Made by a program: the position numbers and the translations under genes
The notes under the pieces: model-generated
What the model was told of the DNA's origin: nothing
The model's input: the letters and a program-made list of their open reading frames with translations, nothing else
Databases searched by the model: none
Part shown: piece by piece, positions 7,996 to 56,098 of the stretch
Layout: the number at the start of each line of letters is the position of its first letter
How positions within the stretch are numbered: the stretch's first letter is position 1
NCBI GenBank assembly: GCA_950295325.1
Contig: OX485808.1
Location: 12,340,501 to 12,404,500 of the forward strand
Direction: 5' to 3'
DNA: 64,000 nucleotides
Source: Polytrichum commune
Lineage: Eukaryota > Streptophyta > Polytrichopsida > Polytrichales > Polytrichaceae

Positions 7996-8224
7996 TCCAT
8001 TGGTGCACTTAGTTTGTTGATTGGAGTCCATAATCACCTTGGAAATGAGCCTTTTCAACGCTGATTTTTCATTTTAATTACCAATCTCAAACCTTTGCAC
8101 AATTTTGGAATTCTGGGGGCATAAACACTTGGCATTTGGCAAGGGATTGCCATTTAGATAGCCCGCAACAGGTGCAGGTTGCCATTACCTTGTAGATAGT
8201 TGCAGGTACTCAAGTGATTATTTT

Positions 8225-11990: not shown

Positions 11991-12333
11991 TGACCAATTG
12001 CTTACTCTGAGGGCAGAGAACAATGGTCAGGGGGCAATGGAGCCGCAATCCAAGGATCACATTGAGGTCAATGATACCGAGGGATTATTTCCTTTGAAAC
12101 TTCATGTTGCGGAAGAGCTTCGAGCCCAACGTGTTTTTTCGGCTTTGGCCCAAGAGTTTGGGAAGTTGGAGGCCCATAAAATGTTTCCACTTCTATTTCT
12201 TGGTGATACTTCATATGTGGGTAGCTATTTAGCTACACAAACTGATTGTAGTGGAGAGGATACGCATTTGGATTCAAATGCAAATGATGGGGGCAAAGGT
12301 GTTGCCCTCTCCACGGACTAGCAATCACAGGCT
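11991..12333 (+). pseudogene. Linker between methyltransferase and reverse transcriptase
   Basis: The frame stays open to a TAG at 12319 and encodes an acidic, motif-free stretch that joins the end of the methyltransferase domain to the start of the reverse transcriptase. It has no recognisable fold. Because it continues the same reading frame on both sides, it supports a single ancestral polyprotein rather than a separate methyltransferase gene. Confidence 0.5.
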
Positions 12334-13900: not shown

Positions 13901-15285
13901 CCACATATCTCACAATGATGTCGGGATTGGCTGCTGAGATCCTTGTAGAAGAACAAGATGAGGAGGTTGATAAATCTCTCGTTGTTAGTGATGTGTGGGA
14001 AGACCAGGCGGTCTTGCACAAACTTCAACAAGGGATATTTCCTCTTGGACTATCTGCTATGGAGCGAGATAGAGTTAATCACCGGATAACAAGGTTTCGT
14101 TGGGCAAACATCTTGTTATTTCGTGTGTGGCCGAACGGAACGAGGCGTATCGTTCTAAGGCCAGATCAAAGAGCTTCTTTAGTGCAACAAGTGCACAAGG
14201 AGCTTGGACATTTTGGTGTGCGAAGGACACACTCTACGTTGCGCAACCAATATTGGTGGACTGGTATGTATCAATAGGTTGCCACTTATGTTTCTCGATG
14301 TGAAGTATGTGACCGGGTTAGGTCAAGTTTTAATACTTTATCACCTCAACTTCAACCTTTACCTATTATGGGCTTGGGATATCGTTGGTCTTTGGATTTT
14401 GCCGGACCGCTTACTATCACTCCACGTGGCTTCAAGTATGTGCTTGTGATGGTGGAGCATTTTAGTAAGTGGATTGAACTCATGGCTCTTCCCCAAAATT
14501 CCTCAGAATTGGCGGCTATGGCATTTCTTGATCGAGTTTTGGCACGGTTTGGAGTACCTGCAGAGGTGTTGACGGATCAAGGGAGAGAATTTCTTGGATC
14601 TTTCGAAGCTTTGTGTATCAAGGCTTTGATTGATCATCGGACAACTTCCAGAGATCACCCTGAGGCAGATGGCTTAGCTGAACGAGTTGTTCAGACGGTT
14701 AAGCGCGGTTTGCGGAAGTATGGATTGTTTCATAGCAACCATCGCGATTGGGACTTGATATTACCATGGATAGCAATGAGTTATCGTTTCAGCAGGCAAG
14801 CATCTTTGGCATCCTATAGTCCTTACCAACTCTTGTATGGACGGGAACCAATTTTACCTAGCTCGGTGCGAGAGAAATTGGCTCCCGTGGTAAACTTGGA
14901 TGATCCAGATGTTTGGGCTCAATGTCTTCATGACCGAGCAACGTTCTTCCAAAAGGCCATGCCTATGGCTATGGAGAACTTAAATATTGCTCAACATCGT
15001 GATACATTACGGTATGCCCGGATCCGCAGTGGAGCTTATCGACCTCAGGTTCGTAGATTTTCCAAGGGGGATTATGTTTACTTGCAACGGGAGGCGCCTA
15101 CGACATTGGATGTCAAGGCTGGGCGCACGATTTTGCGGGTAAAAGATGTCTTGCCAAGTGGTATATTATTGCTTGAAGGCAAGGATGGACGGGAATGTCG
15201 TGAGCATTCAAAGAATTGTGCTCCATGTCACCTTCCCATCGACGGCTCTGTGCATCCCGAGTTGGCGGTTGTACCACAGGGTCTG
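13901..15285 (+). pseudogene. Integrase of the Ty3/gypsy element
   Basis: The HHCC zinc-binding domain spans about 14200-14320 (HFGVRRTHSTLRNQYWW, then CEVC) and is cut by a TAG at 14275. The DDE core follows in the frame 14368-15453: first Asp in WSLDFAGP (about 14389), second Asp in LTDQGREF (about 14568), Glu in the HPEADGLAE segment (about 14661). The block SPYQLLYGREP is at about 14818. The integrase joins element cDNA to host DNA. Its C-terminal region leads without a break into a PHD finger instead of a chromodomain. Confidence 0.88.
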
Positions 15286-15450
15286 CCTTGTTATGTTTGT
15301 GGAGAAAAGAAAGGAGCCGCAACAATGTTATTGTGCGACCAATATCAACGTGGATGGCACATGGCATGTTTGACACCTCCCCTTTTTTATTCTTCCTTCT
15401 GGCAATTGGGTTTGTCCTCGTTGTCAGAAAGCCTCTCATTCCGTGGCCGT
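15286..15450 (+). pseudogene. C-terminal PHD finger of the integrase (frameshifted)
   Basis: After the integrase comes CYVCGEKKGA, then LLCDQY, then RGWHMACLTPP, which is the first two thirds of a C4HC3 PHD zinc finger. The last third (NWVCPRC) appears in another frame at about 15402-15425, so a frameshift lies in the T-run near 15385. The fourth zinc ligand, normally Cys, is Tyr in this copy. PHD fingers usually read histone H3 tails, so the domain could steer integration. This function is inferred from the family, not shown here. Confidence 0.75.
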
Positions 15451-15460
15451 TAATGGTCAT

Positions 15461-20790: not shown

Positions 20791-21034
20791 CTTTGAGCCT
20801 AAGCTTTCTGCTTGATTTTGTGTTTTGGTGGCAATCTGTAGGATCCGCATCATAGCTCTCATCTTCTACGTCATGAGTGAGTGACCCGAATCACGTGAAA
20901 TGCGATGCTGTTGGAAAATTCAGAATCCAGGTCGATGACATGATCCTTTGATCTCTACTCCGTGTCGACAGTGTGGGTCCCATCATTGCCACCTAGGTTG
21001 CCATGGTGGCAGAGGGTCCCATCAAGATTGCCAC

Positions 21035-21043
21035 GTCACTCGC
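21035..21043. repeat. Left 9-bp target-site duplication of the MULE
   Basis: GTCACTCGC directly precedes the left terminal inverted repeat and is identical to 39677-39685 directly after the right one. Nine bases is the canonical Mutator-superfamily duplication. One more matching C would allow a 10-bp reading. Confidence 0.8.
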
Positions 21044-21095
21044 GGGAAACTCAAGTATGTGAGCGTAGAGCGGAGAGCGGAGAATGGAGAGCGGA
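21044..21095 (+). repeat. Left terminal inverted repeat of the MULE
   Basis: It starts GGGAAACTCAAG, continues GTATGTGAGCGTAGAGCGG, and contains three GAGCGG boxes. It pairs with 39626-39676 in reverse orientation at about three quarters identity by eye. Confidence 0.78.
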
Positions 21096-21369
21096 AATTT
21101 TAAAATTTGTTGGGTTATTTTAGGAGAAACAATGCCTAATTCCGTGGATTTTATAGATAGTATGTCTTCAATTTGGAGGAAAGGCACCCCATTCCCGTGG
21201 AGATAATAATCGAACATTGTGAGAGGAACAAACGAAACCTATAGGCGTGGAAGATTGTAGATGTTATCAAACATCTTATAGTCTAGGTTTCAAATAGTTT
21301 CATATCAAATTAGGGTTGACGTCATCAATTGAAAACAAATCAACATATGATGAACATATGAGGTAAACC

Positions 21370-21505
21370 TTACCACAAACATTCAAACAATTCAAACCTT
21401 AACACAAAGCATTCAAACCTTAACACAAAGCATTCAAACCTTAATACAAAGCATTCAAACCTCAACACAAAGAATTCAACCTTAATACAAACCATTCAAA
21501 AACAC
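21370..21505 (+). repeat. About six tandem copies of a 22-bp unit
   Basis: The unit reads approximately CATTCAAACCTTAACACAAAG. It lies between the left inverted repeat and the end of the methyltransferase-like gene, where the 3' untranslated region is expected. Confidence 0.85.
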
Positions 21506-21735
21506 TCACAACCTTAGGTTATCTCAAGTACAACTAAACTAGGCAACCTCCAAAGAATATTCAACCCGCACACCCGAACATATCAAGAGAATTGAAACCA
21601 AATACAAACCTAAACTGAATAAGGGATTACACGAGGTTTGGAAAAGGAACATGGAAATCCAACAAACAAACTTATAAATATTTATAGTAAAAAACAAAAC
21701 ATATGGTAGGGAGGTCCGATACACACGAGGAGTAG

Positions 21736-24700
21736 TCAACAACTAGGACTACCATGTCTATCACTATCCTCGCCCTCCTCGGCCTCTATGTCTAGATAAT
21801 CTAATATTAGGTTATTGAAAGGGCGGATGCAAAGAGGAGGTGGGGACGGTGCTTCCGCCAAGAGATTGGCAAGCCCAGCCGCATAGGAAGGGAGCTCGAA
21901 CGTTGTCGAAGGCGAAGAAAACATGTCGGCGGTAAGGACACGAATCGGGCTAGGAAATGAAGCTCTGAACAAACATGACAAGAAAAAAATTACATTAGAC
22001 AATGGCAACAACTTCAAAGCGAGAAGGAAAAAAATGAAAAGAAGAAGTTCGAAGCCAACAACGAACTTACGCACACAGCAAATCAAAGTTGCGCTTCGCC
22101 ATCTTGCGGGGGGGAGGAGCAAAAACCGATCCCCGTTGTGGGGCCACGTGCTGTGAGGTGTGTTCTTGCTCTGCCTCACGCATGGGGAGGAGGAGTGACT
22201 TGAAGATGTCGATGTCCGACTTTAAAGCCACAATATGGCGTTGAATGGAGCGACATGCAAGGACGGAACCTCCTAATACAACCAATTGCGGAAATGTAAG
22301 GAGACGGGAATGAAAGGAAAATGAAACAAGTAGAAAAAAAACAAAAAAAATCTAAAATGAAAAATGAAAAATAAGGAGATTAAGGACATACCAACGCCAC
22401 ATTGCCAATCTAATATAATGTCGTCCTTGTCCGTGAGTGCGGAGAAAAGAATAGAAAAAAAGTCGGCTCGTTTTTCACGAGCACCTCTCCATGGCACTCC
22501 GTCTTCCCTCATAGATTGGTTATTAGCATCAACGAAGCTGTTGAGCCATCCATCTCTCTTAAGATTGTACCCCTTGTCATCAACCTCCGAAGTGCGGACT
22601 CTCAAAACTGACTCATTACGAACGAGGACCTTGATGAAAAACTTGCGAGTCTGGAAGAAATCCGAACCTTAGAATTAGGAATTCTGAAAAACAAGGAAAA
22701 AACAAAATAAAAAACCCAAATGTGAGGAAAGAAAGAAATTACCAATTCGGATGGAGAAGTGGACGACTGAAGGTCGAGGTCATTCATTCCGAACCAGTCT
22801 TCGGCGACGTAGAACTCCTCCGTGTGTGCCCAATTATGAATCGACCTAGATACTTCAGGATCTGCGGCGTGTGCGAAGACTAGGACGCCGTCGTCATGCA
22901 GATTAGCACTAGCAAAGGCAAACAAAACCTCGAAGTAAGAAGGAGATCGAGTGTTCCACTTAGGAACCTCTAAAGGGGAGGCAGATATGTTAGGGACACG
23001 GAGGTTCTCGGGGACATCTGCAAAGAGAAGATCAATCCCTGTGTGAACCTTAGGCTTCGTATTAGGACGAATACGGCCCCTTCCAACATGCGAGGCAAAA
23101 ATTGAAAGAAATTAAAAAAAAAAACATAGATCAAGAATGTGGATTAAACGAAAAAAACATTGAATGTTACACTGACCTTTGTAATAAATTCCTGGATGCG
23201 ACGGTAGGCCGGAGGTTGAACCTTAGTTCGCATGAGGTCCTCTATCAGCTCCCCCATGTCGACATTCTCAATCAAAACGAGAGAAGATGACTTCTCTGAA
23301 GAAGTTGCGGAGGTATCAGGCGCGACGGCCTTCCTCTTGCGAGGAACGGAGGGGAGGGTCACACCGCTATGGGAAGGCGCAGGAACAAGGTCTGGAGCTA
23401 TGGCAGAAGGAGTTGCAGATGGACTACCGACAACAATTGTGGTTGGAGCAGCCGTACGCTGAACGGAGGCCTTAGTGTGAGAACGAGTGGACACCTGACT
23501 GGAGGCCACCCTCTTACCTTTCCCTTTACCCTTTGCAGACCCAACCTCTTTCACAATGGAGGGAGGAGGAGGAATGGGGTCTTCTTCCGGCTCCTCCTCC
23601 AGTGCAATTACCTCCGGGGCAGAGGACACCAAGCTGCTGTAAAGGGATTCCTCTGGTTCGGGAACGAAACCACGTGAACAATCCAAGTACCAGCCACCTG
23701 CGACCAAGTGCGGGTGGGGGAATTTGGTAATCTGCATGAGACTGTATACACACTGACTGTACCTCGTATCGAGCCATTCTTGGAGGAATGACGGCAAAGA
23801 AGAAGAAGGAAAAGCATTCTTGACGACAAGCTCACGATGAATGTACCTGCATAGTATAGGGTATGAGAATACGAAAAATGAAGCAAAAAAAAGAATGGAA
23901 TGAAATAAGGTAAAACAAATCAATATCAAAAAAAGGATTACCGATAAGCAACGCGCTTGATAGCAATGGGGCCTTCTTCAAATTCCAAGAGATCAAGGCC
24001 TTTGACAAATTTTAAATCTCCCTTGTCGTCAAAATGAACAAAAAATGCCTTGTCCCACAAAATCAGCCTCCAATGCTCAACGTAATTGGCAGGTTGGAGA
24101 ATATCCTCCGAGGAACCCCAGTCAATGTCAACATCCGCCTCATTCTCAAATGAAGCAATCTCAGCCTCAACCCCCTTCTCCAACTATGAAAAGAATGAAA
24201 AATAGTTTAGAAACCAGATTCCAAAAGTCATTAAAGAAATCTAAAACTAGGCATTGAAAATACACATATACCAAGCACATTGAGGTTACTGATTTCCACA
24301 TATCAGTTCTAGTAAGCTTGAAAACAGATTCTAGGATTGACTTCATAATTCATTAACCAGCCCCCTGAGGTTCCTGATTTGCACATAGTAGTTCTAGGAA
24401 ACCCGAACCTAGACTCTAGGATTGACTTCATAATTAATGAAACAGCCATTGAGGTTCCCGATTTCCACATATTAGTTGTAGTAAGCCTGAAACTAGACTC
24501 TAGGATTGACTACATAATCAAATATCAAGCCCCTTGAGGTCCCTGATTTCCACATATTAGTTCTAGTAAGCCTGAAAACAGACTATAGGATTGACTTCAT
24601 AATTCATTAACCAGCCCCTTGAGGTTCCTGATTTCCACATATTTGTTCTAGTAAGCCCGAAACTAGAGTCTAGGATTGACTTAATTATTCATTAACCAAC

Positions 24701-27700
24701 CACTTGAGTAGCATGATTTCCACATATTAGTTCTAATAAGCATGAAACATGACACAAGGCATGACTTCAAAATTCATTAACCAACCCCTAGGGGTTCCTG
24801 ATTTCCCCACCATAGTCCAATATTGGGCCTAGACACCACACATTCTAACACCCTCTCGGAACCAAGAGGGTGGCCAACTATGTATAAACCAGAATCCATA
24901 TTCTAAAACTCATTCTAAAAATCTAAGACTAGTCCTTCAAAGTCCACATTAACAAGCACATGGAGGTTCCTGATTTACACATATTAGTTCTAGTAAGCAT
25001 GAAACTAGACTCTAGGAGTGACTTTATAATCAAATATCAAGCCCCTTGAGGTCCCTGATTTCCACATTATTAGCTCGTATAGGCCAGAAACTTTACTCAA
25101 GGCTTGAATTCAAAACTCCTAGACCAGCCCCTTGGGGTTCCTCATTTCCACATATTAGTTCTAATTGGCCAGAAACTTGACTCAATGCTTGACTTCATAA
25201 TCAAATATCAAGCCCCTTAAGGTCCCTCATTTCCATATATTAGCTCTTATAGGCCAGAAACTTTACTCAAGGCTTGAATTAAAAACTCCTAGACCAGCCC
25301 CTTGGGTTCCTGATTTCCCCACAATTTTCCTATATTGGGCCTAGGCACTCCACTTTCTGTCACCCTCTCGGAACCGAGAGGGTACCGAGCTATGTCTAAA
25401 CCTGATACCATTCACTAATCTCATTCCAGAATTCTTAGACTAGTCCTACAAAGTCCACATTTTGACACTCTCTCGGAACAGAGAGGGTGCCCAATTATGG
25501 ATAATCCTTATACCATATTCTAAATCTCAATCCACAAATTCAATACTAGTCTTTCAAAGTCCACATTTTGACAAGCTCTCGGAACCGAGAGGGTGCCCAA
25601 CTATGTGTAAACCTGAAACCATATTCTAAAATTCCTTACAGAAATCTAAAATTTGAAATAAAAAACGAAGAACAAACATCATTTCGGAAACCTCGAAAAG
25701 AGAAAGGATCAAAGAGAGGAAAAAAAATTGTAGATGCACCTGAGCCCAGAATGAAGCTTTGTTGAGCCAGTTTTCAAGGACTTTCTCCCTAAGAGGGAGA
25801 GACGATGGAAATCTATTCTTATCTTTGACATCGGCAGGGGAGTTCCACCAACGAAGCCACTTGGCCTTGAAGTGGGCATCGACATGTGCAGTGGCCACCT
25901 TTTGAAGTTTTTCGATTGTCATATCAGTGACGAGGAAGGTGGAGAAATGACGGTCAATCTGCCACATACAACAGTGAAAAGGAAGAAAGAGATATGAAGC
26001 ACGACAAGATTAATAGGAGAATGAAAGACTAAATAAAAAAAACAAAGATAGGAGAGGCACCTCGTTGAAGAAATCATCACCGTTGTCCTTGTGGGCAACG
26101 GAAATGAACTTCTCAAAGTTCCGAGAACGAATGTTTTTGATCAACCTATCCTGGGCTTTTGTCATAGCCTCCCAAATTTCAGTCGAAGATCTCTGAGCCT
26201 CGGGAGTGGCCTCATGGTATAACCTTGCGGCCGTATCAGCCGCGTTTGATATCTCCCTCTGAAACAAAAAGAAAAGCATAAGGAACGCACATAAACATGG
26301 GAGAAGCAAAGTCAAGGAAAAATCACCCAACATTTACCTTGTATAAAAATTTGACGAAGACGTCTAATGTCAAGGGATACCAAGTAGGATTCTTCTCCAT
26401 CTTGGACTCACACATCTTGTAGTCCGCAACGGAAAGGAGGTCTTTAAACTCCTCTAGCCTCATCTTCCCAAACGTCCGAATACGAAGTAACTTGGCGGGT
26501 AGGTTGTTCTTAACATGGTCATGTTCCGTGGACCTAAACAAATAAAATGTTAGAGGATAAAATACAAAAAAAAAAAGATAAGCTCAAGAACATCAAATAT
26601 CGAACTCACCAGTTGATGTCATTCATAACATTAAGGAAGATGGCTGTGCAATTTCTTGGATCCACCAGAATACAATCAGTAGAGATATGCCAATCTTTGT
26701 CCAACGGGTGATGATTGTTAATGTGCCTCCACCAAGCTGTCAACCGATGGTTCCCCTCCCACACGTAGAATATTTTGCCAACAAAGCTAGCAAGGTCGGA
26801 GTCTCCTTGGAGAATGGCATCAAACTCTACATTGGCCTCCTGCCATAATGGACTCCAAGAGGCCTTGATGTCATCGGATACATCAAGGCCCTCATCGAGG
26901 TTGTTGTATGGAGAGACGTACATAGCTCGGTCACCATCACGATAACCCATCACGAACTCATTCTCCAAACGAGCAACATCAACGCCGTTGATAGGACGAA
27001 CAAGAGGAAGACAACGCAAGCGACACAATGGAATAGGGAAACGAGATTTCCCAAGAGGTTTGAATCGAACCCGCTGAATCACGGTGTTGGAATCTTGTTT
27101 ATGCGATCTCCGTACCAAAAGCTCTGTCTCAACCGGGTTCGACTCATCTAGAGGTTTTAGGTAGTCGGATACAACCGGAGCATCAATCTAAAAGGAAAGA
27201 GAAGCACAACATAAGAAGACAACACAAAAACCAAACATACAAGAAGCCGAATAAAACATTGACACACAAAAGAAAACCTCCAAAAGTTCAACGAATCAAA
27301 CACCTCTCCCTGTGAGACGTTATCAAGAGCCGCAACGAGAGCCTCAGGAGGCGAAAAATGAACATTGACATCCTCCATTAAATGCACCCGTGATACAGTA
27401 AGAGCCAAAGCCTGCGATGCCTGCATGCACAATATACATACCATGAAAATGTGACTAGATCCTAACCTGGAGTACATATATTAATCAACAGCCCATTGGA
27501 AGTTGTGATTATCCCACATTAACTCCAAAAACGAGAGGGTGCCAATGTCCCATGGAACTGAATCTAGGACTAGTACTTGAAAGTCCACATTCTGTCACCC
27601 TCTCGGAACCGAGAGGGTGCCCAACTATGTATAAACCAAAATCCATATAATAGAACTCAATCCAGAAATTCAAGACTAGTCCTCCATAGTGGGTGCCCAA

Positions 27701-30700
27701 CTATGTATAAACCTGATACCAGATTCTTAATGTCTTTCAAGAAATTCAAGACTAGTCCTTCAAAGTCACATTAGCAAGCACATGGAGGTTCCTGATTTCC
27801 ACATATTAGTTCTAATAGGCCAGAAACTTGACTCAAGGCTTGACTTCATAATCAAATATCATGCCCCTTGAGGTCCCTGATTTCCACATATTACCTCTTA
27901 TAGGCCAGAAACTTGACTCAAGGCTTGACTTCAAAACTCATAGACCAGCCCCTTGGGGTTCGTGATTTCCCCACCATATTCCTATATTGTGACTACACAC
28001 TCCACTTTCTGTCACCCTCTCGGAACCGAGAGGGTGCGGAATATATCTACACCTGATACCATATTCTAATTCTCATTCCAGAATTCTTATACTAGTCCTT
28101 CAAAGTCCACATTTTGACACCCTCTCGGAACCGAGAGGGTGCCAAACTATGTATAAACCAGAATCCATATTATAGAACTCAATCCAGAAATTCAAGACTA
28201 GTCCTCCATAGTCCACATTTTGACACCCTCTCGGAACTGAGAGGGTGCCCAACTATGTATAACTCTGATACCATATTCTAAATTTCAATCCAGAAATTCA
28301 AGACTAGTATTTCAAAGTCCACATTTGGACACCCTCTCGGAACCGAGAGGGTGCACAACTATGTGTAAACCCGAAACCATATTCTAAATTTCAATCAAGA
28401 AATTCAAGACTAGTCCTCCAAAGTTCACATTTGGACACCCTCTCGGAACCGAGAGGGTGCCCAACTATGGATAATCCTGATACCAGATTCTAAATGTCAT
28501 TCCAGAAATTCAAGACTAGTCCTTCAAAGTCCACATTAAAAAGCACATGGAGGTTCCTGATTTCCACATATTAGTTCTAGTAAGCCTGAAACTATACTCT
28601 AGGCTTGACTTCATAATCAAATATCATGCCCCTTGAGGTCCCTGGTTTCCACATATTACCTCTTATAGGCCAGAAACTTGTCTCAATGCATGACTTCAAA
28701 ATTCATAGACCAGCCCCTTGGGGTTCGTGATTTCCCCACCATATTCCTACATTGTGCCTAGACACTCCACTTTATGTCACCCTCTCGGAACCGAGAGGGT
28801 GCCCAACTATGTATAACCCTGATACCATATTCTAAATTTCAATCCAGAAATTCAAGACTAGTCTTTCAAAGTCCACATTTGGACACCCTCTCGGATCCGA
28901 GAGGGTGCACAACTATGTATAAACCCGAAATCATATTCTAAAATTCAATCAAGAAATTCAAGACTAGTCCTCCAAAGTTCACATTTGGACACCCTCTCGG
29001 AACCGAGAGGGTGCCCAACTATGGATAATCCTGATACCAGATTCTAAATGTCATTCCAAAAATTCAAGACTAGTCCTTCAAAGTCCACATTAGCAAGCAC
29101 ATGGAGGTTCCCAATATGATGTGGGGATCCCACCCCTCCACCACCCTCTCGGATCCGAGAGGGTCCCTACCAAGACGCCCCTAGAAACTTTAGACCATCA
29201 TAACTTTCTCATACGTTCTTTGATTTTGACAAATGACCCCTTCATCTTCATCTACGTTTCTTGTACATGCCAATGGACTACTCATTTGCCACATTCCGGC
29301 AAGTATTGAGGAAGTTATCCCTATTGAAAGCTAGGTCCAAAGCAAAATCTGATGTGGGGATCCTACACCTCCACCACCCTCTCGGATCCAAGAGGGTGTC
29401 TATGTGACATAGCATGCATACAAACACATACTCTCACATATCATATATCCAAAGAAATACCTCACACCTCCTTCAAAGCTAGGTCCCAAAGCAAAATATG
29501 ATGTGGGATCCTACACCTCCACCACCCTCTCGGATCCGAGAGGGTTTCTATGTGACATATCATGTACACAAACATATACTCTCACATATCATATATCCAA
29601 AGAAATACCTCACACATCCTTCAAAACTAGATCCGAAAGCAAAATATGATGTGGGGATCCCACTCCTCCACCACCCTCTCGGATCCGAGAGGGTGTCTAT
29701 GTGATATATCATGTACACAAACATATACTCTCACATATCATATACCCAAAGAAATACCTCACACATCCTTCAAACCTAGATCCGAAAGCAAAATATGATG
29801 TGGGGATTCCACTCCTCCACCACCCTCTCGGATCCGAGAGGGTGTCTATGTGATATATCATGTACACAAACATATACTCTCACATATCATATACCCAAAG
29901 AAATACCTCACACATCCTTCAAACCTAGATCCGAAAGCAAAATATGATGTGGGGATTCCACTCCTCCACCACCCTCTCGGATCCGAGAGGGTGTCTATGT
30001 GACATATCATGTACACAAACACATACTCTCACATATCATATACCCAAAGAAATACCTCACACCTCCTTCAAAGCTAGGTCTCAAAGCAAAATATGATGTG
30101 AGGATCCCACCCCTCCACCACCCTCTCGGATCCGAGAGGGTTTCTATGCGACATATCATGTATACAAACATATACTCTCACATATCATATACCCAAAGAA
30201 ATACCTCACACATCCTTCAAACCTAGATCCGAAAGCAAAATATGATGTGGGGATCCCACTCCTCCACCACCCTCTCGGATCCGAGAGGGTGTCTATGTGA
30301 CATATCATGTATACAAACACATACTCTCACATATCATATACCCAAAGAAATACCTCACACCTCCTTCAAAGCTAGGTCCCAAAGCAAAATATGATGTGGG
30401 GATCCTACACCTCCACCACCCTCTCGGATCCAAGAGGGTGTCTATGTGACATATCAAGTACACAAACATATATTCTCACATTTCATATAGCCAAAGAAAT
30501 ACCTCACACATCCTTCAAACCTAGATCCGAAAGCAAAATATGATGTGGGGATCCCACCCCTCCACTACCCTCTCGGATCTGAGAGGGTCCCTACCAAGAA
30601 GCCCCTAGAAACTTCAGACCATCATAACTTTGTCATACATTCTTCGATTTTGACAAATGACCCCTTCATCTTCATCTACGTTTCTTGTACATGCCAATGG

Positions 30701-33700
30701 ACTACTCATTTGCCACATTCAGGCAAGTATTGAGGAAGTTATGCCTATTGAAAGCTAGGTCCCAAAGCAAAATCTGATGTGGGGATCCTACACCTCCACC
30801 ACCCTCTCGGATCCGAGAGGGTGTCTATGTGACATATCATGAACACAAACATATATTCTCACATTTCATATACCCAAAGAAATACCTCACACATCCTTCA
30901 AACCTAGATCCGAAAGCAAAATATGATGTGAGGATCCCACTCCTCCACCACCCTCTCGGATCTGAGAGGGTGTCTATGTGACATATCATGTACACAAACA
31001 CATACTCTCACATATCATATACCCAAAGAAATACCTGACACCTCCTTCAAAGCTAGGTCCCAAAGCAAAATATGATGTGGGGATCCCACCCCTCCACCAC
31101 CCTCTCGGATCCGAGAGGGTTTCTATGCGACATATCATGTACACAAACATATACTCTCACATATCATATACCCAAAGAAATACCTCACACATCCTTCAAA
31201 ACTAGATCCCAAAGCAAAATATGATGTGGGGATCCCACCCCTCCACCACCCTCTCGGATCTGAGAGGGTCCCTACCAAGAAGCACCTAGAAACTTCAGAC
31301 CATCATAACTTTGTCATACATTCTCCGATTTTGACAAATGACCCCTCCATCTTCATTTACATAACCAACACTTGCAAGATTGACCTTAGAATCTAGTCCA
31401 CATGGGCCTTCCCCATGACCCTCGCGGATCCGAGAGGGTCCTTTCTTTGCGTCGGACGTATGCACCTCAAGCTTGCCAAACATGGAAGGTTTTGTAAGAT
31501 ACTCCCTACCAAAGTCATTTGAATTAAAGGATAACTGTATTACCCTAGTAAAAATTTCCGCCCTATCCCTAATCCCTTCGGCTACTTGCCTTAAATTTAA
31601 AAATTGGCTTGGTAAATATCCTAAAATATGATGCCTCAACCGGCTATATTGCCGATATTTTCTCATTTCAACCGGTCAATTAGTTGTAATTGGCCAGAAA
31701 CTTGACTCAATGCTTGACTTCATAATCAAATATCAAGCCCCTTAAGGTCCCTCATTTCCATATATTAGGTCTTATAGGCCAGAAACTTTACTCAAGGCTT
31801 GAATTCAAAACTCCTAGACCAGCTCCTTTGGTTCCTGATATCCCCACCATTTTCCTATATTGGGCCTAGGCACTCCACTTTCTATCACCCTCTCGGAACC
31901 GAGAGGGTGCAGAGCTATGTCTAAACCTGATACCATTTCCTAAATCTCATTCCAGCATTCTTATACTAGTCCTACAAAGTCCACATTTTGACACCCTCTC
32001 GGAACCGAGAGGGTGCCCAACTATGGAAAATCCTTATACCATATTCTAAATGTCATTCGAGAAATTCAAGACTAGTCCTTCAAAGTCCACATTTTCAATC
32101 ACATGGAGGTCCCCGATTTCCACATATTAGTTCTAGTAAGCATGAAACTAGACTCTAGGAGTGACTTTATAATCAAATATCAAGCCCCTTGAGGTCCTTG
32201 ATTTCCACATTAGTAGCTCTTATAGGCCAGAAGTTTTACTCAAGGCTTGACTTCAAAACTCCTAGACCAGCCCCTTGGGGTTCCTCATTTCCACATATTA
32301 GTTCTAATTGGCCAGAAACTTGACTCAAGACTTGACTTCATAATCAAGTATCAAGCCCCTTGAGGTCCCTGATTGCCACATATTAGTTCTAATAGGCCAT
32401 AAACTTGACTCAAGGCTTTACTTAAAAACTCATAGACCAGCCCCTCTGGGTTCCTGATTTCCCCACTATTTTCCTATATTGGGCCTAGGCACTCCACTTT
32501 CTGTCACCCTCTCGGAACCGAGAGGGTGCAGAGCTATGTCTAAACCTGATACCATTTCCTAAATCTCATTCCAACATTCTTATACTAGTCCTACAAAGTC
32601 CACATTTTGACACCCTCTCGGTTCCGAGAGGGTGCCCAACTATGGATAATCCTTATACCATATTCTAAACTTCAATCCAGAAATTGTATACTAGTCTTTC
32701 AAAGTCCACATTAGCAAGCACATGTAGGTTCTTGATTTCCACATATTAGCCTTAGTAAGCCTCTTACTAGACTATAGAATTTACTTAATAATCAAATATG
32801 AAGCCCCTTGAAAACCATATTTTCCACATATTATGTCTAGTAAGCATTAAACTAGACTCTAGGAGTGACTTCATAATCAAAAATCAAGCCCCTGAAGGTC
32901 CCTGATTTCCCCATATTAGCTCTTATAGGCCAGAAATTTTACTCAAGGCTTGACTTCAAAACTCCTAGACCAGCCCCTTGGGGTTCCTCATTTCCACATA
33001 TTAGTTCTAATTGGCCAGAAACTTGACTCAAGACTTGACTTCATAATCAAGTATCAAGCCCCTTGAGGTCCCTAATTGCCACATATTAGTTCTAATAGGC
33101 CAGAAGCTTGACTCAAGGCTTGACTTCAAAACTCCTAGACCAGCCCCTTGGGGTTCCTCATTTCCACATATTAGTTCTAATTGGCCAGAGACTTGACTCA
33201 AGACTTGACTTCATAATCAAGTATCAAGCCTCTTGAGGTCCCTGATTGCCACATATTAGTTCTAATAGGCCAGAAACGTGACTCAAGCCTTGACTTCAAA
33301 ACTCCTAGACCAGCCCCTTGTGGTTCTTGATTTCCCCACCATATTCCTAAATTGTTCCTAGACACTCCACTTTCTGTCACCCTCTCGGGTGCCGAACTAT
33401 GTCTACACCTGATACCATCTTCTAAATCTCATTCCAGAAATCTCAAACTCACTTGTTCTTGAGAAGCCTTGGCCTTCGCCTTGGCCTTCGCCTTGGCCTT
33501 CGAACATGGGGATGCCTTCCTCCTTGCCTCAGCTGACCCTTCCTCCGAACTGCCGAATTCTCTCCTCCCTCCGACCTACCCTAACTCCCTCCGAACTATC
33601 TCCTCCCTCCTACCCTAACTCCCTCCGAACTCTACTAGGTCTGCGGCTAGGGTTTCCTCTCCCACTTGGTCCCCGCCTAGTCGAATGCCGAGAGCCTACT

Positions 33701-34351
33701 TGCGGAGGACACTATGACATTAACCTACATTTTCTTTGACTCTCTCGGTTCCGAGAGGGTCCGTTCCTATACTACCCTCTTTCATGATGAACTCATTTAA
33801 ACAAAATGAGAACTTCCTACAACTACCTATCTGGTTAACATTCATTTTATGGGTCATTTTCCACATCCAGTCAACATGCACTTTATGAAGATTCACATTA
33901 CATACCTCAATTTCAAAATGTCATTTTCCATATAACCAAAATGTATATCTGACCCTCGTGCATCAAACCCTAAACCCATACTTACATTGCTTATTGTGTC
34001 TTCTTTTGTCTCCTCCTCCGATCCGCTCATGTCGGAATTGCTTCGTTGCTCGCTCTCTCCCATCGATGGTTCGCGTGATTCACTGTGCTCCCGTTCTTCC
34101 TCTATCTGTTCCAGCTCCTCGTTCCTGCTATATGTCCCTATCTCGTCCTCTCCGCCCGTTTTGCTCAAATCTGTTGGTGGCTCACTTCCCTGAGTACAAG
34201 TTTGCTCCTTCTTCCTAAGTTCTCTCCGTCGCCTCTGTTTAGAATTGCTAAAACTCGTGCCTCCCTTTCTTTTCTTCCTCTTTCTTCCAGGATCGGCAGT
34301 GGAGACTTGACTATTTCCTAGTTCCTTCATGTGTGCGTCCCGGTTTGCCAA
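21736..34351 (-). CDS. ParB-like / N-4/N-6 DNA methyltransferase-like protein, 12 exons
   Basis: Exons on the minus strand: 34351-33986, 27420-27304, 27187-26610, 26533-26338, 26258-26061, 25958-25740, 24183-23942, 23846-23177, 23048-22743, 22650-22392, 22272-22071, 21964-21736. All junctions use GT and AG and keep phase, giving about 1,193 residues. The acceptor at 23048 is the least certain, and exon 1 is assigned by its GTAAGT donor, phase and position. Residues 1-122 are charged with a basic nuclear-localisation-like cluster. Residues about 220-350 resemble ParB/sulfiredoxin domains (E-G-N-H-R at 305-309). Residues about 720-800 are low-complexity with a KGKGKGK run. Residues about 865-1115 fit the permuted order of N-4/N-6 methyltransferases: LLFADVPEN where D-P-P-Y is expected (about 869-877), WRGAREKRADFF, then the SAM-binding LDWQCGVGGSV (about 1044-1054). 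The degenerate catalytic motif makes activity uncertain. Some phage proteins join the same two domains. Confidence 0.72.
24250..25640. repeat. Repeat-packed intron 6 of the methyltransferase-like gene
   Basis: Six or more units of roughly 117 bp lie head to tail, built on CCTTGAGGTTCCTGATTTCC, ACATATTAGTTCTAGTAAGC and GATTGACTTCATAATCAA. Four palindromes with the core CTCGGAACCGAGAG or a variant follow at about 24851, 25362, 25465 and 25573. The same unit families fill intron 1, so two introns of one gene share one repeat family. Confidence 0.88.
27421..33985. repeat. Palindrome-bearing tandem array in intron 1
   Basis: About 30 copies of an almost perfect 22-bp palindrome with core CCTCTCGGATCCGAGAGG, or the same with AA or TT in the centre, are spread over 6.5 kb. 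One class has the AA centre and recurs every 105-106 bp (28014, 28119, 28224, 28330, 28436). A second class has the fully symmetric AT centre and recurs every 148-150 bp (29671, 29820, 29969, 30119, 30269, 30417). Between them lie palindrome-free units of about 117 bp shared with intron 6. The palindrome is more constant than the spacers around it. A last copy with a TT centre lies at about 33740, some 600 bp before the first exon. I see no exon inside the array. Confidence 0.9.
31375..31690. repeat. Unrelated insert interrupting the palindrome array
   Basis: The tandem pattern stops at about 31375 and resumes at about 31690. The insert carries one altered palindrome (CCTCGCGGATCCGAGAGG at about 31418) and ends with CAACCGGCTAT and TTTCAACCGGTCAATT. 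These resemble the CCGGTT-rich dispersed repeat at 1685 and 55762. A minus-strand open frame crosses it (31666-31295) but shows no splice signals that fit the gene. Confidence 0.5.
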
Positions 34352-34654
34352 TACTCGTCTCTCTCCTATCCTCTTCTATTAGGGCATCGCACTCACATAA
34401 TAACTCGTTCCTTTGCTTGTATTGTTCTTTATATTGCCAGTGCTTGAGGGTTAGGGTTTCCCTATTTCAGGAAGCCGTCCCATTTTTTCCCTTTTTGGCA
34501 TCCTTTCCCTATTCTTTTTATATAAACATTACTTCTACGTCTTCTGTTCCTTCGGTGATGGACATGGTGTCATCACAACGTTTGTCTTCACCATTCTTCT
34601 CCTATATAAATCTTTGCATCTTTGTTCATTTACGTTTGTATTTTCTCTGCCTTC
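34352..34654. promoter_or_regulatory. Shared bidirectional promoter of the two MULE genes
   Basis: Only about 300 bp separate the minus-strand start at 34351 from the transposase start. On the plus strand TATATAAA lies at 34603-34610, about 45 bp before the preferred ATG at 34655. Another TATATAAA lies at about 34517. Because transcription would begin about 30 bp after the proximal TATA box, the upstream ATG at 34622 is unlikely to be used. Confidence 0.55.
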
Positions 34655-37600
34655 ATGTCTTCTACCTCAATGGCCGAAATTCGTTCTCATGGCATCGGCG
34701 TCCCTATTCTCTTCCCCATTGATGCACAGGGTATTGTTGTTGTCTCGGAGCGTCATCTTTGCATTAGGTTCTCTCTTCAAGCTGATACAGTATGGGTAGA
34801 GCGTGAGATCTTCGATCCTGATACTGGATTGCTCGTTCATACCTTCCATGAGTCCTCCAAGCTAACTGACAATGGCAATGTGTGGGAGCTTGGCGCTGGA
34901 CAGTATAGGGTTGTTGGCTGGCCAAATTCTGAGATGAGAGTGGCAACAAAACTCCTTGCTCCTCTTCGATCTTCCACTGCTGACTTTAGCACACCTCTGG
35001 TAATAAGTGTCAAGACCGAGCCTGACATAGAGAATGTTGTAGACTTGTCTGATTCTTCGACTGAAGATGTATCTGTGAAGAAGGTTGCTGTTCATGATTC
35101 CCCTTCTTTGTTTCCCTCTGATTCCTTTGTAACGCCTTCTCCTTCTCGCTCTGTGCCTTTATCTCCTTCGGTCCCGTCTACGTCTAAACCTCCACCAGTG
35201 CATAAGGTTGCTGTTCATGATTCCCCTTCTTTGTTTCCCTCTGATTCCTTTGTAACGCCTTCTCCTTCTCGCTATGCGCCTTTATCTCCTTCGGTACCGT
35301 CTACGTCCAAACCTCCACCACCTATTGTTCAATGTCTTCGTCGTCTTGGTTCTATACCCGGTAGTAAAAGTGTCCTCAAGAAAATAGATTACGATAAAAT
35401 CAAAATCCAAGAGGTTAATCACCTTCCCCCTCGTTTCGATGGTACCCAGTTATTTGTCCTCCCTGCACCAGAAGTCTCTTCATCTCAATCCAGGGCCAAG
35501 TCCATGGACGGCATGGACAAGCAATATGATGGCCATGTTTGGACGAGAACGCAAACCACCAACATCACAAACGACGTTGGCCTTGTATTTCGTTCCTCTA
35601 CCTGTGTTGGCCATCTCCAATGCCAAAACCCTACTTGTGATTACCTTCAACGCGCCCATCGTATCTCTCAGGTCAACGACATGGAATTTGATGGTTTCAC
35701 TACTCAGCCTTTCCCTCTCTCTGGCATTGTGCCATCCGGATCTACTCTTGTGTGCAGGATCTGCAAACAACCTCCCAAATGCATTGCACTCTGCGAGGCG
35801 AAAATTTTCTACGTCCATGGGAAGAATTTCTCCCAAAGAGCCTGCATTCATATCGGAACTCATCAACATCCCGTGAAGGTTGGAGACTGCAGACACAGTC
35901 GGAAGCGCATCAATGCTCTTCTCGAGGAGCACGTTGAGCGTACGCCTCAAGCCATGCACAGCAAGATCGTCCTTGAAGCCAGCAAGGACATTGTTGGTGA
36001 GTTCCTCCTTTCCGAGGATAGTGACAAACATCGTCTCCTCTCCCTAAAGGAGCTCGAACCTGTGTTTGAGAGTTGTAGAGAGTTGAATTCCCCAAACCTT
36101 CGTTCTAAGGTTACCTCTTTCAAATTTTTGCGGAGGTTCGGTGTTATGGATGGCATCGCTAAGCTCCGAGGCGTTAGCAATTGGGCCTACATCCAACGGA
36201 ACCAATTCCCAGGACAAGGTGACGATGCTGACAAGGTGTTCGTCTTCAAGATGTCGGAGGTTGGTCCTGGAAGCGGTGTGGATTTGGTTCGTCGGATGCA
36301 ACCGGGTGGGGACCTTGAGAACGCCTGGATTATGTCCGATCACGTCAAGCGGGTCAAAGGGTGGACCACCATGGCCGCTCATGTGTATGATGGGACTTAT
36401 CAACGGGTCATGACCATTTCATGTTGTGATTTCCAATCGGAGGATAAGGATGCCCAAGTGCTCTTCTGGCAGAACCTCAACCACGTCATGGCCCGCCACG
36501 GTATCCCGCATCCAACGTTCATTGGCTTCATGGCGGACAGTGCGCAAGCAAATTGGAACGCTGTGCGCATTGTGTATGGTTCAGGAGATCCCAAAATTCC
36601 AATGGAGGGCCGTGAGCGTACTTGTTTTTTTCATTGGAAACAGTCGCTCGAGAAACATACAAAATCATACATAAAGCATGAGTTGCAAGACCAACATAGA
36701 CACCTTTGCCTTCAATATCGCAATGCGTCCTCTATGGCAGAGGCGGAGACTAGGTATCTAGCTATCAAGGCTTGGTGGGCATCATCGAATTGTACAAGTA
36801 AGGACGGTCTCAAACACCTCCAGCTCTGGCTTGCTTTCTGGCACTTCCGCTACCTTCAATGGGGTGGTTTCATGGAACTGGTACATCCCCTTCATGCTTC
36901 ATTATTCTTTTTTCCTGGATTTAGTTTCCTCTCTTTGTGCTCCCTCTAATACTCCCTCTGCACTCTCCAATCAGGAAAAAGTTCTGACTCAAGACCAGTT
37001 GGCCGAGATGCCGTCGTGCAATCTTGCGGAGTCCGTCCACAACAAGTGGCTTCAGGCATCGGGCAACAAGGGTGGAGATTTATACGTGGCTACGATGGAC
37101 GATTACATTCGCGCCTTCCTACAAGTTGTTGCATACTACACATTCCTTAAAGGTGGTATTGGCGGAGATGGTCCAAGCAAAGAAGAACTCAAGCTCAGGG
37201 GTGCTCAACGTCGAGCTCAGCGTACTGGCGACCCCACAGTGTTGCAGAAGGTCTTGCTCGACATGCCCGGTGGGGAAGAGTTTTGCACTCGCGATCTCCA
37301 CCTTGAGGGCGCCGAGGTGTTTAGATCGCAGAAGCGAAGACCAGACACTCCAATTGGTGATGATGGCGAGACCCACCGTCCCGATACCGTGAACTTCTCT
37401 CGCCCTCCCCCCGGTAAGCGAATCACTCGCTCTCAACCTGCATCACTGCCTACTATCATTGAGGAGTCTTCCCCCTCTATACAAGAGGTTCAAGTGCCTT
37501 CACCTGCAGGACTTGGTTTCCAGCGTGTCACCGCCGTGCAAGAAACCAAAGTAGATGTCTCTCTTTGGCATATTGCCCGCATATCCTATACCTCTGGGAA

Positions 37601-38201
37601 GTCTTGTTGGGCTAATCATGCGGGCACGAAAAAACAATGCACCGCAAGAATCGTCACCAATAACAAGAGCGTCCCTGCGCCCACCTACACCGGTATGTGG
37701 CATCATTACAAACTCCAATCTATGAAGCGCACGGATTTCGTCTTCTGCCCGGATGACATAGAGCGTTGCGTAAAGGGCCCTCGTCGGAAATGGTTCATGC
37801 CGTTCTCTGATGGTCAAGAGAAACCTCCCATTCCCCCAATTTGGCCCGTCAAGATTGGTACCAACCTCACCCGTTCGGAGATCTTCGCCCTTGAGAACGC
37901 ATGTTTTCAACTCCCACCAAAGGAGCGCATCTCACCGACTCAACTTTTCACCAACTCCGCTCCCCCCCTGGATATGTCTGGAATCCGTATTCCGGAATTC
38001 CCAGACTTCATCCCTCCGACAAGATTGTCCAAGGTTGTTCGGCGATGCACCAGCGCACCTTCGGCAAAGCAGAGGCAGATGGTTGCCTCTACTGAAGCTA
38101 TGCATGGTACTGTTCTGAAGTTAACTATGATCCCTCAACCGGGATTTGGCTGCATTATCTCACTGCAGTCCAAGTCAGAACCCCAACCCCCCATATACTA
38201 G
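34655..38201 (+). CDS. MULE-type DDE transposase with GCM-like zinc-binding region
   Basis: Two exons, 34655-36880 and 36975-38201, encode about 1,150 residues; the 94-bp intron has GTACAT and AATCAG borders and keeps the frame. Residues about 315-405 hold cysteines and histidines spaced as in GCM/WRKY-like zinc domains (TCVGHLQC, C-x4-C, CRICKQ, then ACIHIGTHQHP), suited to binding the element ends. The catalytic core follows: D579 in Y-D-G-T-Y, D628 in MADSAQAN, and a C-x2-H pair at C657 and H660 (CFFHW), characteristic of Mutator transposases. The third acidic residue may be the Glu in NLAESVHNKW at the start of exon 2. Residues about 143-224 hold a 41-residue direct duplication. A translation start at 34622 would add 11 residues. 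It should cut and paste the 18.6-kb element. Confidence 0.82.
35081..35326 (+). repeat. In-frame 123-bp tandem duplication in the transposase gene
   Basis: The segment beginning AAGGTTGCTGTTCATGATTC at 35081 recurs at 35204 with very few differences. At 123 bp (41 codons) it preserves the frame and duplicates a Ser/Pro-rich linker. The near identity of the copies indicates a recent event. Confidence 0.95.
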
Positions 38202-38710
38202 GTGACAGTGAGTTCTTATCCAGAGTGCAATTGCGCGAACTTTGTGGATATGATTTCCAAGTTCAGCCGCAAACGCAATTCTTATCTCAATTGTAAGCAT
38301 TTGTATTACATCTTCATCAAGGTTTCTAATTTAGATCCAGAAGTGAATTTGTTCATTCACGCCCCAACATTTAGCTTCAATGAAGTCAAACTCATCCTCG
38401 AAGGGGGTCTCTTGACACAACCTACTTCTTAGAATTCATATCTGTCTACCTATACATTGTGCCCTAATAGATGTACCGATTGTGGACATCATGTATATTC
38501 ATAAGTGTTTGCTATAATAAAGATGATCTGATGGATTCTTATTTATTCCATTTAAAATGTTTTATTACAGTACAAAATTGTCAAGTGACCTCTAGTTCAA
38601 ATTGGAGGTGCTACCTTTGTCTATCATATCTACTTCCGTTTTGCAATTCTTCTATATGTATCATCGTCCCTTCTTGATGGAGGTGGGCCCGGCCGAAACA
38701 AATCCATGTA

Positions 38711-39148
38711 TTAGACCGTTTTATCCTTCAGTCGATCCTTCAATGGAAGATGATGCGGCTCACTTCCTCTCATCCTTTGCCGAAACGACATAGACTTTGA
38801 AGATTCCCCTACTTCAGTCACCTCATCATCCATGTTCGTCGTATTCTCTTCATTCACAACAGCGACTTCATTCACACCAGCGTCCTTCTCCAGCACATCA
38901 AAATGCCACCTAACTTTTTTTGTGTTTTGTTTCTGCTCCTCCTGCATCCTCCACCTCCGGGCTTGTGTAGACTGCAAAAATGGAGTGAGGTCGTAATCAT
39001 CACTACATTGATTTCCAGCACGTATGTCACGTTCCGGCGATGGAATAAAAGGAACATCGGGATCTCCTAGACTTCTAATTTCATTTTCCCATCCTAGGCC
39101 AACAAACGTTTTTCTCTCCTCTCCCATTGTGTGCATGCGTCTATACAA
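38711..39148 (-). CDS. Small hypothetical protein of the MULE
   Basis: An open frame of 145 residues converges on the transposase gene and ends about 500 bp before the right inverted repeat. The product is hydrophilic, with alternating acidic and basic stretches (RRWRMQEEQKQ, SFRQRMRG). It has no membrane segment and no motif I recognise. It may be an accessory product, as the second gene is in maize MuDR elements, or a chance frame. No TATA box stands out. Confidence 0.35.
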   Translation of the reverse strand: MYRRMHTMGEERKTFVGLGWENEIRSLGDPDVPFIPSPERDIRAGNQCSDDYDLTPFLQSTQARRWRMQEEQKQNTKKVRWHFDVLEKDAGVNEVAVVNEENTTNMDDEVTEVGESSKSMSFRQRMRGSEPHHLPLKDRLKDKTV

Positions 39149-39625
39149 GACTCTAACTTATGTCCTAATATATATTGAGTTCGAAGATAATGTCTTCGAC
39201 CACAAACAATAATTGTTTGACTCACACATAGGACAAAGACAAAAGTAATAGAATCAAATCGGAGCAAGTTGGCCGACCTTTATATTTTTATTGACTCATT
39301 CTTCAATTATACAAACTTCGATATGCTTATTTTTGTTTGTTCTTTCCATGGATCATCATTGATGTTAATCATATACTTATACGTTTTATTTTAATGCTAT
39401 TTCATTTTAGCACTTCCCGGTTCCGAAATGTAATGAGACCATTTCAAATATAGGGCCTTGTGAGTTAGATTTGAACCTATACATTCCACGGAAATAGGTC
39501 AATATTTTTTTAATTAGTAAATTCTAGAATATTCGAAGCATATTCCAGTCTATTTTTAAAATCTAAATTTGGTCTAAGAAGTTTGCTAAATTTAATCACT
39601 CTCTGCTATCCGCTCTCCACATCAC

Positions 39626-39676
39626 CGCTCTAAGCTCTTCGCTCCCCGCTCTACGCACACATACAAGTGTCGTCCC
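39626..39676 (-). repeat. Right terminal inverted repeat of the MULE
   Basis: Read inward it begins GGGACGACACTTGTATGTGT and continues GCGTAGAGCGGGGAGCG, matching the left end with one indel and scattered changes. Confidence 0.78.
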
Positions 39677-39685
39677 GTCACTCGC
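39677..39685. repeat. Right 9-bp target-site duplication of the MULE
   Basis: GTCACTCGC, identical to 21035-21043. Confidence 0.8.
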
Positions 39686-55980: not shown

Positions 55981-56098
55981 ATATATATCTCTGAAATAAG
56001 AGCACCAGCCAGGTGTTATGAGCAAAAAAGCGAGCACTGTGGGCTTCTTCAATTTCCTCTATTAGTTTGAGTCCAGCTTTGAATCCATGGTCCTGTAA

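Follow-up and report, generated by a model that had tools for sequence, protein, structure and literature searches.

An element-specific array of conserved palindromes in predicted introns of a Mutator-like transposon of Polytrichum commune

A large Mutator-like transposon of Polytrichum commune carries a dense array of CpG-containing palindromes in two predicted introns of its second gene. The array is specific to its element family, the site is conserved beyond its spacers, related elements carry a changed word that is still symmetric, and one group of elements is a mosaic. We see an even chance that the array consists of protein-binding sites by which the transposon family recognises itself through the product of the second gene, with an anti-silencing role of the VANC type. 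A preliminary description of this DNA stands as regards the array and the constrained site, but not in its suggestion that the array could be a methylation target. No earlier print report of the array appeared among the papers listed by searches of the open-licence PubMed Central literature.

Results

The palindrome array

The window, the whole 64-kb stretch that was analysed, contains 33 matches to the 18-bp core CCTCTCGGATCCGAGAGG at up to three mismatches. All lie between 24852 and 33758, with no further palindrome outside that span at the same threshold, bearing out the count of about 34 copies and the coordinates given in the preliminary description. Extension of the core to 24 bp gives the word CACCCTCTCGGNNCCGAGAGGGTG, to which 17 of the 33 sites are exact at the 22 defined positions; the centre is AA/TT in 17 sites and AT in 16. 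A chance origin was rejected, since 100 dinucleotide shuffles gave an expectation of 0.00 for CCTCTCGGATCCGAGAGG and control patterns returned 0 in the genome counts. Four sites fall in an intron at 24.2-25.6 kb and 29 at 27.6-33.8 kb, and tandem units hold most of them:

28001-29091, + strand: 106-bp tandem units with a mostly AA-centred palindrome (28001-28537 and 28778-29091; more units at 25349, 31886 and 32493)
29327-31269, + strand: 149-bp tandem units with an AT-centred palindrome (29327-30588 and 30751-31269)
33741-33758, + strand: lone palindrome close to the splice donor of exon 1 and some 0.9 kb upstream of the transposase frame

Across all 33 rows, column identity is at least 0.91 in 21 of the 24 palindrome columns. 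It drops to 0.85 at one C, to 0.73 at the final base and to 0.55 at the A/T centre, and 41 of the 44 flanking columns lie at 0.36-0.79. In the window alone this contrast is modest because flanks within a single repeat class are far more similar than across classes, as expected from tandem duplication. The strong contrast between site and spacer rests on the other elements.

The transposon and its transposase

The array lies within a complete element:

21034-21043, no strand: left target-site duplication, CGTCACTCGC
21044-39675, no strand: complete Mutator-like transposon of 18,632 bp, ends GGGAAAC...GTCGTCC; terminal repeats imperfect, 10-bp target duplication perfect
34610-38201, + strand: transposase gene in two open frames that overlap, with an ATG near 34655 and probably a short intron near 36.9 kb
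39676-39685, no strand: right target-site duplication, CGTCACTCGC

Two other copies have the same ends and also 10-bp duplications, and the duplication length was set by comparing these three elements. Mutator-like elements (MULEs) are described in excerpts of PMC6446971 as having target-site duplications of 8-11 bp, and all three complete elements have 10 bp. The transposase frames of the window gave no Pfam match above cut-off, and neither they nor three homologues matched a MULE profile. The signature of a MULE-type transposase is a DDE catalytic domain with D...D...C..H-like spacing, and spacing of this kind was recognised, by eye only, in the transposase. The genomic survey scored 58 transposase copies among 3,319 candidates. 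A palindrome (up to five mismatches) lies roughly 0.65-0.9 kb upstream of the transposase in 11 of 30 kept loci, comprising three of four in group A, the window included, and eight of ten in group C; it is absent from the remaining one and two loci, respectively. None of the 16 loci of other groups has such a site, the flanks there being mostly too short to judge.

The divergent second gene

On the opposite strand we predict a second gene with the following parts:

33906-34330, - strand: exon 1, Lys/Arg-rich N-terminus; tblastn matches in X1, X2 and groups B, C, D and E
27421-33905, - strand: predicted intron 1 with 29 palindromes (27599-33758), ends inferred from sequence signals
26606-27187, - strand: ParB-like exon, predicted model, 143 database homologues
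25626-26333, - strand: exons E4 and E5, 52-85% tblastn conservation among elements
24199-25630, - strand: predicted second intron with four palindromes (24852, 25364, 25469 and 25575)
22273-23977, - strand: 3' exons MT1-MT3, earlier labelled methyltransferase-like, homologues found for one exon

The placement of the array in two introns, as first proposed, is predicted from the open reading frames together with splice-like signals, among them GAG|GTATGT at 33906/33905. The model of the ParB-like exon (pLDDT 79) has sulfiredoxin and the N-domain of ParB/Noc/KorB as its nearest folds; the ParB match is moderate and to the N-domain alone, where the aligned range ends. Its survey scored 150 genomic copies among 1,242 candidates. 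A search for relatives of the ParB alignment gave 29 pattern matches in viral and 54 in prokaryotic contigs, none of them confirmed, and the exact palindrome pattern gave 0 matches in viral contigs.

The methyltransferase-like label gained no support from Pfam. The MT exons gave no match when tested singly, a setting in which split exons lower sensitivity. Three homologues, including one with a continuous frame across both exons, gave none either, and the model is of low confidence (pLDDT 52). The N4/N6 DNA methyltransferases carry the catalytic motifs [DNS]PP[YFW] and DPFxGSGT, and at the expected places the window has the non-canonical ADVPEN and DWQCGVG. With profiles, model and motifs all failing to support a methylating activity, we rejected the proposal that the array is a methylation target of an element-encoded enzyme.

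Genome-wide distribution

The preliminary description had called for a genome-wide count of the motif. This gave 2,612 strand-hits across the 408-Mb genome against 0 for the control, and the first 100 matches listed all fall in elements (28 in X1 and 72 in X2). In 144 kb, comprising the window and two 40-kb regions, 195 of 195 palindromes lie within element boundaries. Control patterns for the GGCC-class and half-site searches described below likewise gave 0 matches. Among the matches listed, 46 of 50 GGCC-class sites (the 50 form five clusters when sites less than 10 kb apart are merged) and 85 of 100 half-sites lie in or within 15 kb of an element copy. The other 19 of these 150 listed sites (4/50 and 15/100) are away from any listed transposase or ParB copy, the copies compared being the 58 scored among 3,319 transposase candidates and the 150 scored among 1,242 ParB candidates. 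In the DNA examined, specificity of the motif to its element family is well supported.

Conservation between elements

The complete elements X1 and X2 retain the palindrome in intron 1 with different spacers. Between elements, identity is 0.92-0.95 in the palindrome, a figure inflated by picking sites for similarity, compared with 0.27-0.44 in the 25-bp flanks and 0.25-0.26 at random. The proposed near-invariance of the palindrome beside varied spacers is clear between elements. Retention of CpG within sites is at least 75% in 10 of 10 pieces, and CpG observed/expected outside sites is 0.11-0.57; in groups D and E retention says little because outside depletion is mild (0.57 and 0.52). Taken together, these comparisons give good support to the view that the site itself is under constraint.

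Variants of the word in related elements

Sister groups have changed sites at the same place. Some carry GGCCTCGGATCCGAGGCC, with 2,171 copies, others an off-centre form, and others a single half-site, of which there are 890 copies. A group D copy carries, in the same intron, GAGGCCTCGGATCCGAGGCCTC in 26 exact and six one-mismatch occurrences; relative to the 18-bp core of the window, each arm is changed at its three outermost bases and symmetry is retained. Groups B and F have the half-site rather than the palindrome, and no palindrome of hairpin type was found in them. The core CTCGGAWYC, derived from these same data, was counted in 14 upstream pieces from nine groups and is present in 12 of them, at 3-96 occurrences each, compared with averages of 0.02-0.43 in 2-base-block shuffles. 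Sites are absent from pieces L047 and L049. Array size is highly variable among elements, and X2 has the largest array seen, yet its ParB exon is undetectable. The outgroup X2 also has the palindrome of the window, which may therefore be no more than the ancestral form.

The word and the second gene

Among copies with the motif read or listed, ParB-exon identity to the window falls into classes: 94-100% and 88% for copies with the same palindrome, 81-83% for the off-centre form, 74-76% for the half-site and 61-65% for the GGCC form. The GGCC word is common to groups D and E, as is a ParB-identity class (64-65% to the window), and their first exons are 84% identical over 44 residues, with at most 48% to other elements. 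The transposase tree rejects a D+E clade (AU p 0.0004). A clade of A+C+X1 is rejected as well (p 0.001), but only owing to the position of E within it, which points to one mosaic event rather than two. By these sequence comparisons, group E is a mosaic that combines one lineage's transposase with another lineage's motif and second gene. Given that exon 1 and the ParB exon lie on either side of the array, linkage alone may keep the motif and these exons together.

Discussion

These data allow us to propose a mechanism in which an element-made protein, most likely the second-gene product with its basic N-terminal exon and ParB-like domain, would recognise the half-site CTCGGA(A/T)(C/T)C, the full palindrome usually being bound by a symmetric dimer. 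Dense intronic sites in the element's own gene would mark the element, so that its genes stay expressed or its chromatin stays open, in the manner of VANC proteins in Arabidopsis VANDAL elements. Arrays would grow by tandem duplication, which would also replace spacers, and drift in specificity would lead to the whole array being swapped for a new version of the word. We infer the binding, the identity of the binding protein and the effect on chromatin or silencing from the analysis as a whole.

A rather unlikely alternative is a VANC-independent system, in which an element-encoded ParB-type clamp would load on the intronic arrays, spread along the element and prevent silencing, subfamilies escaping one another by changing the entire array to a new symmetric word. 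That the element instead exploits sites of a host protein (a transcription factor, insulator or replication factor) as an intronic enhancer is unlikely; CTCGGAWYC is common to nine of nine groups sampled, as a fixed host factor requires, but the outer arms vary from group to group (in D they remain symmetric), and no site lies outside elements in the 144 kb examined. Other DNA transposons have subterminal repeats as transposase-binding sites, and the palindromes could be internal sites of this kind that aid element finding or excision. The sites do belong to the element, and 11 of 30 loci have one close to the divergent promoter. Identity of the transposase between groups is lower in the N-terminal part (50-84%) than in the C-terminal part (81-93%). 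However, the element ends are without sites and the group E word does not follow the transposase, and we consider this reading distinctly improbable.

Functionless tandem repeats, preserved merely through recent spread, would account for the tandem units, for the variable array sizes and for flanks that are alike within one element (0.47-0.77 over 25 bp). Between elements, however, spacers are near random where the site is retained, and all nine groups sampled keep the core, making passive persistence very unlikely. Intronic RNA hairpins acting in pre-mRNA (in splicing or as a small-RNA precursor) are hardly credible as the main function, for although the full site could by inspection fold into a stem of 10 bp capped by a 4-base loop, and symmetry is kept in D, only a half-site is retained in groups B and F and the X2 array runs in the opposite direction, relative to its gene, from the arrays of the window and X1.

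If self-recognition through the second gene is correct, it would offer a candidate function for the ParB-like accessory proteins reported from algal transposons, and the co-evolution of motif and binding protein would be directly testable. Dense intronic site arrays would be suggested as a general survival strategy of large DNA transposons against silencing. Sequence-specific anti-silencing by transposons has been described for the VANDAL elements of Arabidopsis (excerpts of PMC5735166 and PMC10398659); ours would add a second case, distinguished by a ParB-like protein, by sites numbering in the thousands and by the coexistence of at least four versions of the word in a single genome.

Comparison with known systems

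The ParB-like exon invites comparison with two systems beside VANDAL. Bacterial parS sites are palindromes to which a ParB N-domain protein binds as a dimer; the present sites differ in sequence, in forming dense arrays instead of a few sites and in their location in a eukaryotic transposon, and no helix-turn-helix was seen in the aligned range of the protein, which ends with the N-domain. The 21.5-kb Sola1-1_Ec32 of Ectocarpus is reported to have an accessory gene with ParB-like and DNA-methyltransferase parts (PMC12477816, in excerpts). Both are large transposons with a ParB-like domain encoded opposite the transposase strand. Sola1-1_Ec32, in contrast, belongs to the Sola superfamily and the excerpts mention no binding-site array, and the methyltransferase-like part of the window element has no Pfam support.

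The closest parallel is with VANDAL21 and VANDAL6 of Arabidopsis, whose VANC anti-silencing proteins bind motif arrays and demethylate, the VANC21 motif being the 9-base YAGTATTAY (excerpts of PMC5735166 and PMC10398659). The window site, unlike that of VANC21, is a CpG-containing palindrome of 22-24 bp, and the accessory protein is ParB-like; binding and demethylation, established for VANC, are proposed here by analogy. As in the VANDAL/VANC system so far as these excerpts describe it, an accessory gene is combined with a dense short motif in non-coding tandem repeats, including accessory-gene introns (predicted here), the motif is mainly confined to its own family and differs between families, and repeat units are quickly gained, lost and replaced.

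The palindrome array and its element

The preliminary description placed about 34 palindromes inside two introns of a methyltransferase-like gene. This count was closely borne out: allowing up to three mismatches to the 18-bp core, we found 33 sites in two predicted introns of the second gene of a Mutator-like transposon. The sites recur mostly in units of 106 bp and 149 bp, the spacers of which are unlike one another. The window spans C6:12340501-12404500 and has these features:

21044-39675: complete transposon, with a perfect 10-bp duplication (CGTCACTCGC) at both sides
+ strand, in the transposon: transposase gene
minus strand, divergent from the transposase: second gene, made up of a first exon of basic character, then one that is ParB-like, then the 3' exons that the preliminary description took for methyltransferase-like
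24.2-25.6 kb, intron: smaller site array, 4 sites
27.4-33.9 kb, intron 1: larger site array, 29 sites

Outside the element, tandem repeats of 144 bp (7641-8036, 2.8 copies) and 216 bp (56097-56743, 3 copies) were observed. A PIF1-like helicase fragment (2766-3948, + strand, E 5e-12) is possibly part of a Helitron. At 8162-15453 (+ strand) a Ty3-type retrotransposon reads in pieces that stops interrupt. A C-5 cytosine methylase is weakly matched in the stretch that separates its protease from its reverse transcriptase (PF00145, E 0.004), and a PHD finger downstream of the integrase (E 0.0003); both matches are below the cut-off.

Sites are specific to one transposon family in the DNA examined

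A genome-wide count of the motif had also been proposed. In 408 Mb (64 contigs), the exact core with an AA or AT centre gave 1,226 forward and 1,386 reverse matches, AT-centred sites scoring on both strands so that sites are fewer than matches; the reversed control pattern gave 0. The first 100 matches listed form two clusters on C1, of 28 and 72, and reading 40 kb at each identified two related elements:

C1:16451290-16472227: X1, duplication ATGAGGCAGT
C1:24585047-24610396: X2, duplication GATTTTGTAT

With up to five mismatches allowed, all palindromes fell within element bounds (window 33/33, X1 40/40, X2 122/122), and none lay outside the three elements in the 144 kb examined. X1 sites occupy the two introns used in the window element. 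Nearly all X2 sites lie between exon 1 and exon E5, a stretch in which no ParB exon was found, and three exact sites lie between 3' exons MT2 and MT1. Together these data support well an array that is real and, in the DNA examined, specific to one transposon family.

Sister groups carry altered words

We scored 58 of 3,319 candidates from a transposase search and examined 14 pieces from nine groups for the sequence that lies upstream of the transposase, covering it whole or in part. Group D, a 766-aa open frame, accounts for 32 of the 58 scored copies; intron 1 of the one copy read holds the word GAGGCCTCGGATCCGAGGCCTC (26 exact, 6 with one mismatch), and its 18-bp core occurs 2,171 times genome-wide against 0 for the control. 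The group D element at C1:28012000-28030908 has a second palindrome, CCCACGGGTGTTCACCCGTGGG, which with its close variants appears four times and shares the intron of the main word. The word of group E is GAGGCCTCGGATCCGAGGGCTC, with 17 copies of similar sequence across 4 kb; groups C and G carry an off-centre form, CACCCTCTCGGAATCGAGAGGGTC. In groups B and F the units are 74-75 bp long and contain a single half-site each, CCTCTCGGAATCTAAG, whose 22-base version occurs 890 times genome-wide (control 0). In three copies, half-site arrays of opposite orientation stand on either side of the ParB exon, as though each half of the palindrome had come to form an array of its own:

C1:65539147-65546482: B element
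C5:2395449-2403296: F element
C1:46112105-46117771: copy at C1:46.11 Mb

Among the matches listed, 46 of 50 GGCC-class core sites and 85 of 100 22-base half-sites have a listed transposase or ParB match no more than 15 kb away, which is true of at most 1.5% of the genome. Merged at under 10 kb, 3 of 5 GGCC-class and 4 of 7 half-site clusters among the matches listed are near a listed copy. The copy lists are partial, so the remaining places (GGCC class, C1:2.490-2.497 and 13.84 Mb; half-sites, C1:69.91, C4:9.006 and C4:31.54 Mb) could belong to elements or not.

A core common to the groups, CTCGGA(A/T)(C/T)C, picked after inspecting the same data, occurs 3-96 times in 12 of the 14 pieces; 2-base-block shuffles gave means of 0.02-0.43. 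It is absent from the other two, neither of which matches the element. These come from spread-out copies close to the window element (C6:9503075-9531045 and C2:21056478-21082801), in which ParB exon and transposase are 25 and 23 kb apart rather than 7 kb. The pieces therefore probably fell into inserted DNA, the gaps probably being nested insertions in intron 1.

The site is nearly constant while its surroundings diverge

As the preliminary description had it, the palindrome is nearly constant and the spacers divergent. Between elements, palindrome identity is 92-95%, a figure inflated because sites were chosen by similarity, and 25-bp flanks, free of that inflation, reach 27-44%, near the 25-26% of random stretches. 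Flank identity inside one element is 47-77%, as expected from tandem duplication. All 10 pieces retain at least 75% of the possible CpGs in their sites (in an F piece an extra CpG brings the count to 26 against 25 possible); outside sites, CpG stands at 0.11-0.57 of expectation in 10 pieces, with depletion mildest in D and E. G-to-A at both CpGs is a frequent change inside X2 sites, the kind expected if a copy in decay had been methylated. Constraint on the site is well supported.

The word may travel with the second gene

A transposase tree of 20 copies places E between X1 and A+C, with D in another part of the tree. It rejects D+E as one clade (p 0.0004); A+C+X1 is also rejected (p 0.001), from the same cause, E, and so offers no second case. 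Yet D and E have the GGCC word in common, as well as a ParB class 64-65% identical to the window. They also share exon 1, at 84% across 44 residues, compared with a maximum of 48% to the window element, the further element A7, X1, C, B and X2. This gives group E the appearance of a mosaic whose word arrived together with the second gene. The outgroup X2 has the window's palindrome, which may therefore be ancestral.

Among copies of known motif, ParB-exon identity to the window declines as the motif grows less alike: the same palindrome goes with 100% (window), 94% (C7 copy) and 88% (X1), the off-centre form with 81-83% (C, G), the half-site with 74-76% (B, F, C1:46.11 copy) and the GGCC word with 61-65% (D, E, C1:13.97 copy). 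The 3' exon MT3 runs otherwise, X1 being 71-81% like D and X2 and 51% like the window. The main caution on this association is linkage, since the array is flanked by exon 1 on one side and the ParB exon on the other. X2 has 122 sites though it lacks a detectable ParB exon; X2 may rely on copies elsewhere, or the sites may be read by something other than the ParB exon.

Comparison with known systems

We consider the chances about even that the array is a binding platform for an element-encoded protein; a ParB clamp that spreads is possible but less likely. The reading of the array as a methylation target of the element's own enzyme is disfavoured, a methylating function for the present gene not being supported.

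In outline, the anatomy is that of the VANC/VANDAL system of Arabidopsis. According to PMC5735166, the anti-silencing protein VANC21 binds YAGTATTAY, tandem-repeat packed in the VANC21 and VANB21 introns and upstream of VANA21; motif type and repeat number vary among related VANDAL elements, and the targets of VANC6 have motifs other than those of VANC21. By this likeness, the array would most likely tag the element for the element's own protein, which would counter silencing. Sola1-1_Ec32 of Ectocarpus is reported to carry, on the strand that does not encode its transposase, a gene with ParB-like and methyltransferase parts; proteins of this type are suggested there to bind to, and modify, the transposon that encodes them (PMC12477816). 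Arrays like the present one may, by the same kind of comparison, be the sites for Ectocarpus-type ParB-like proteins.
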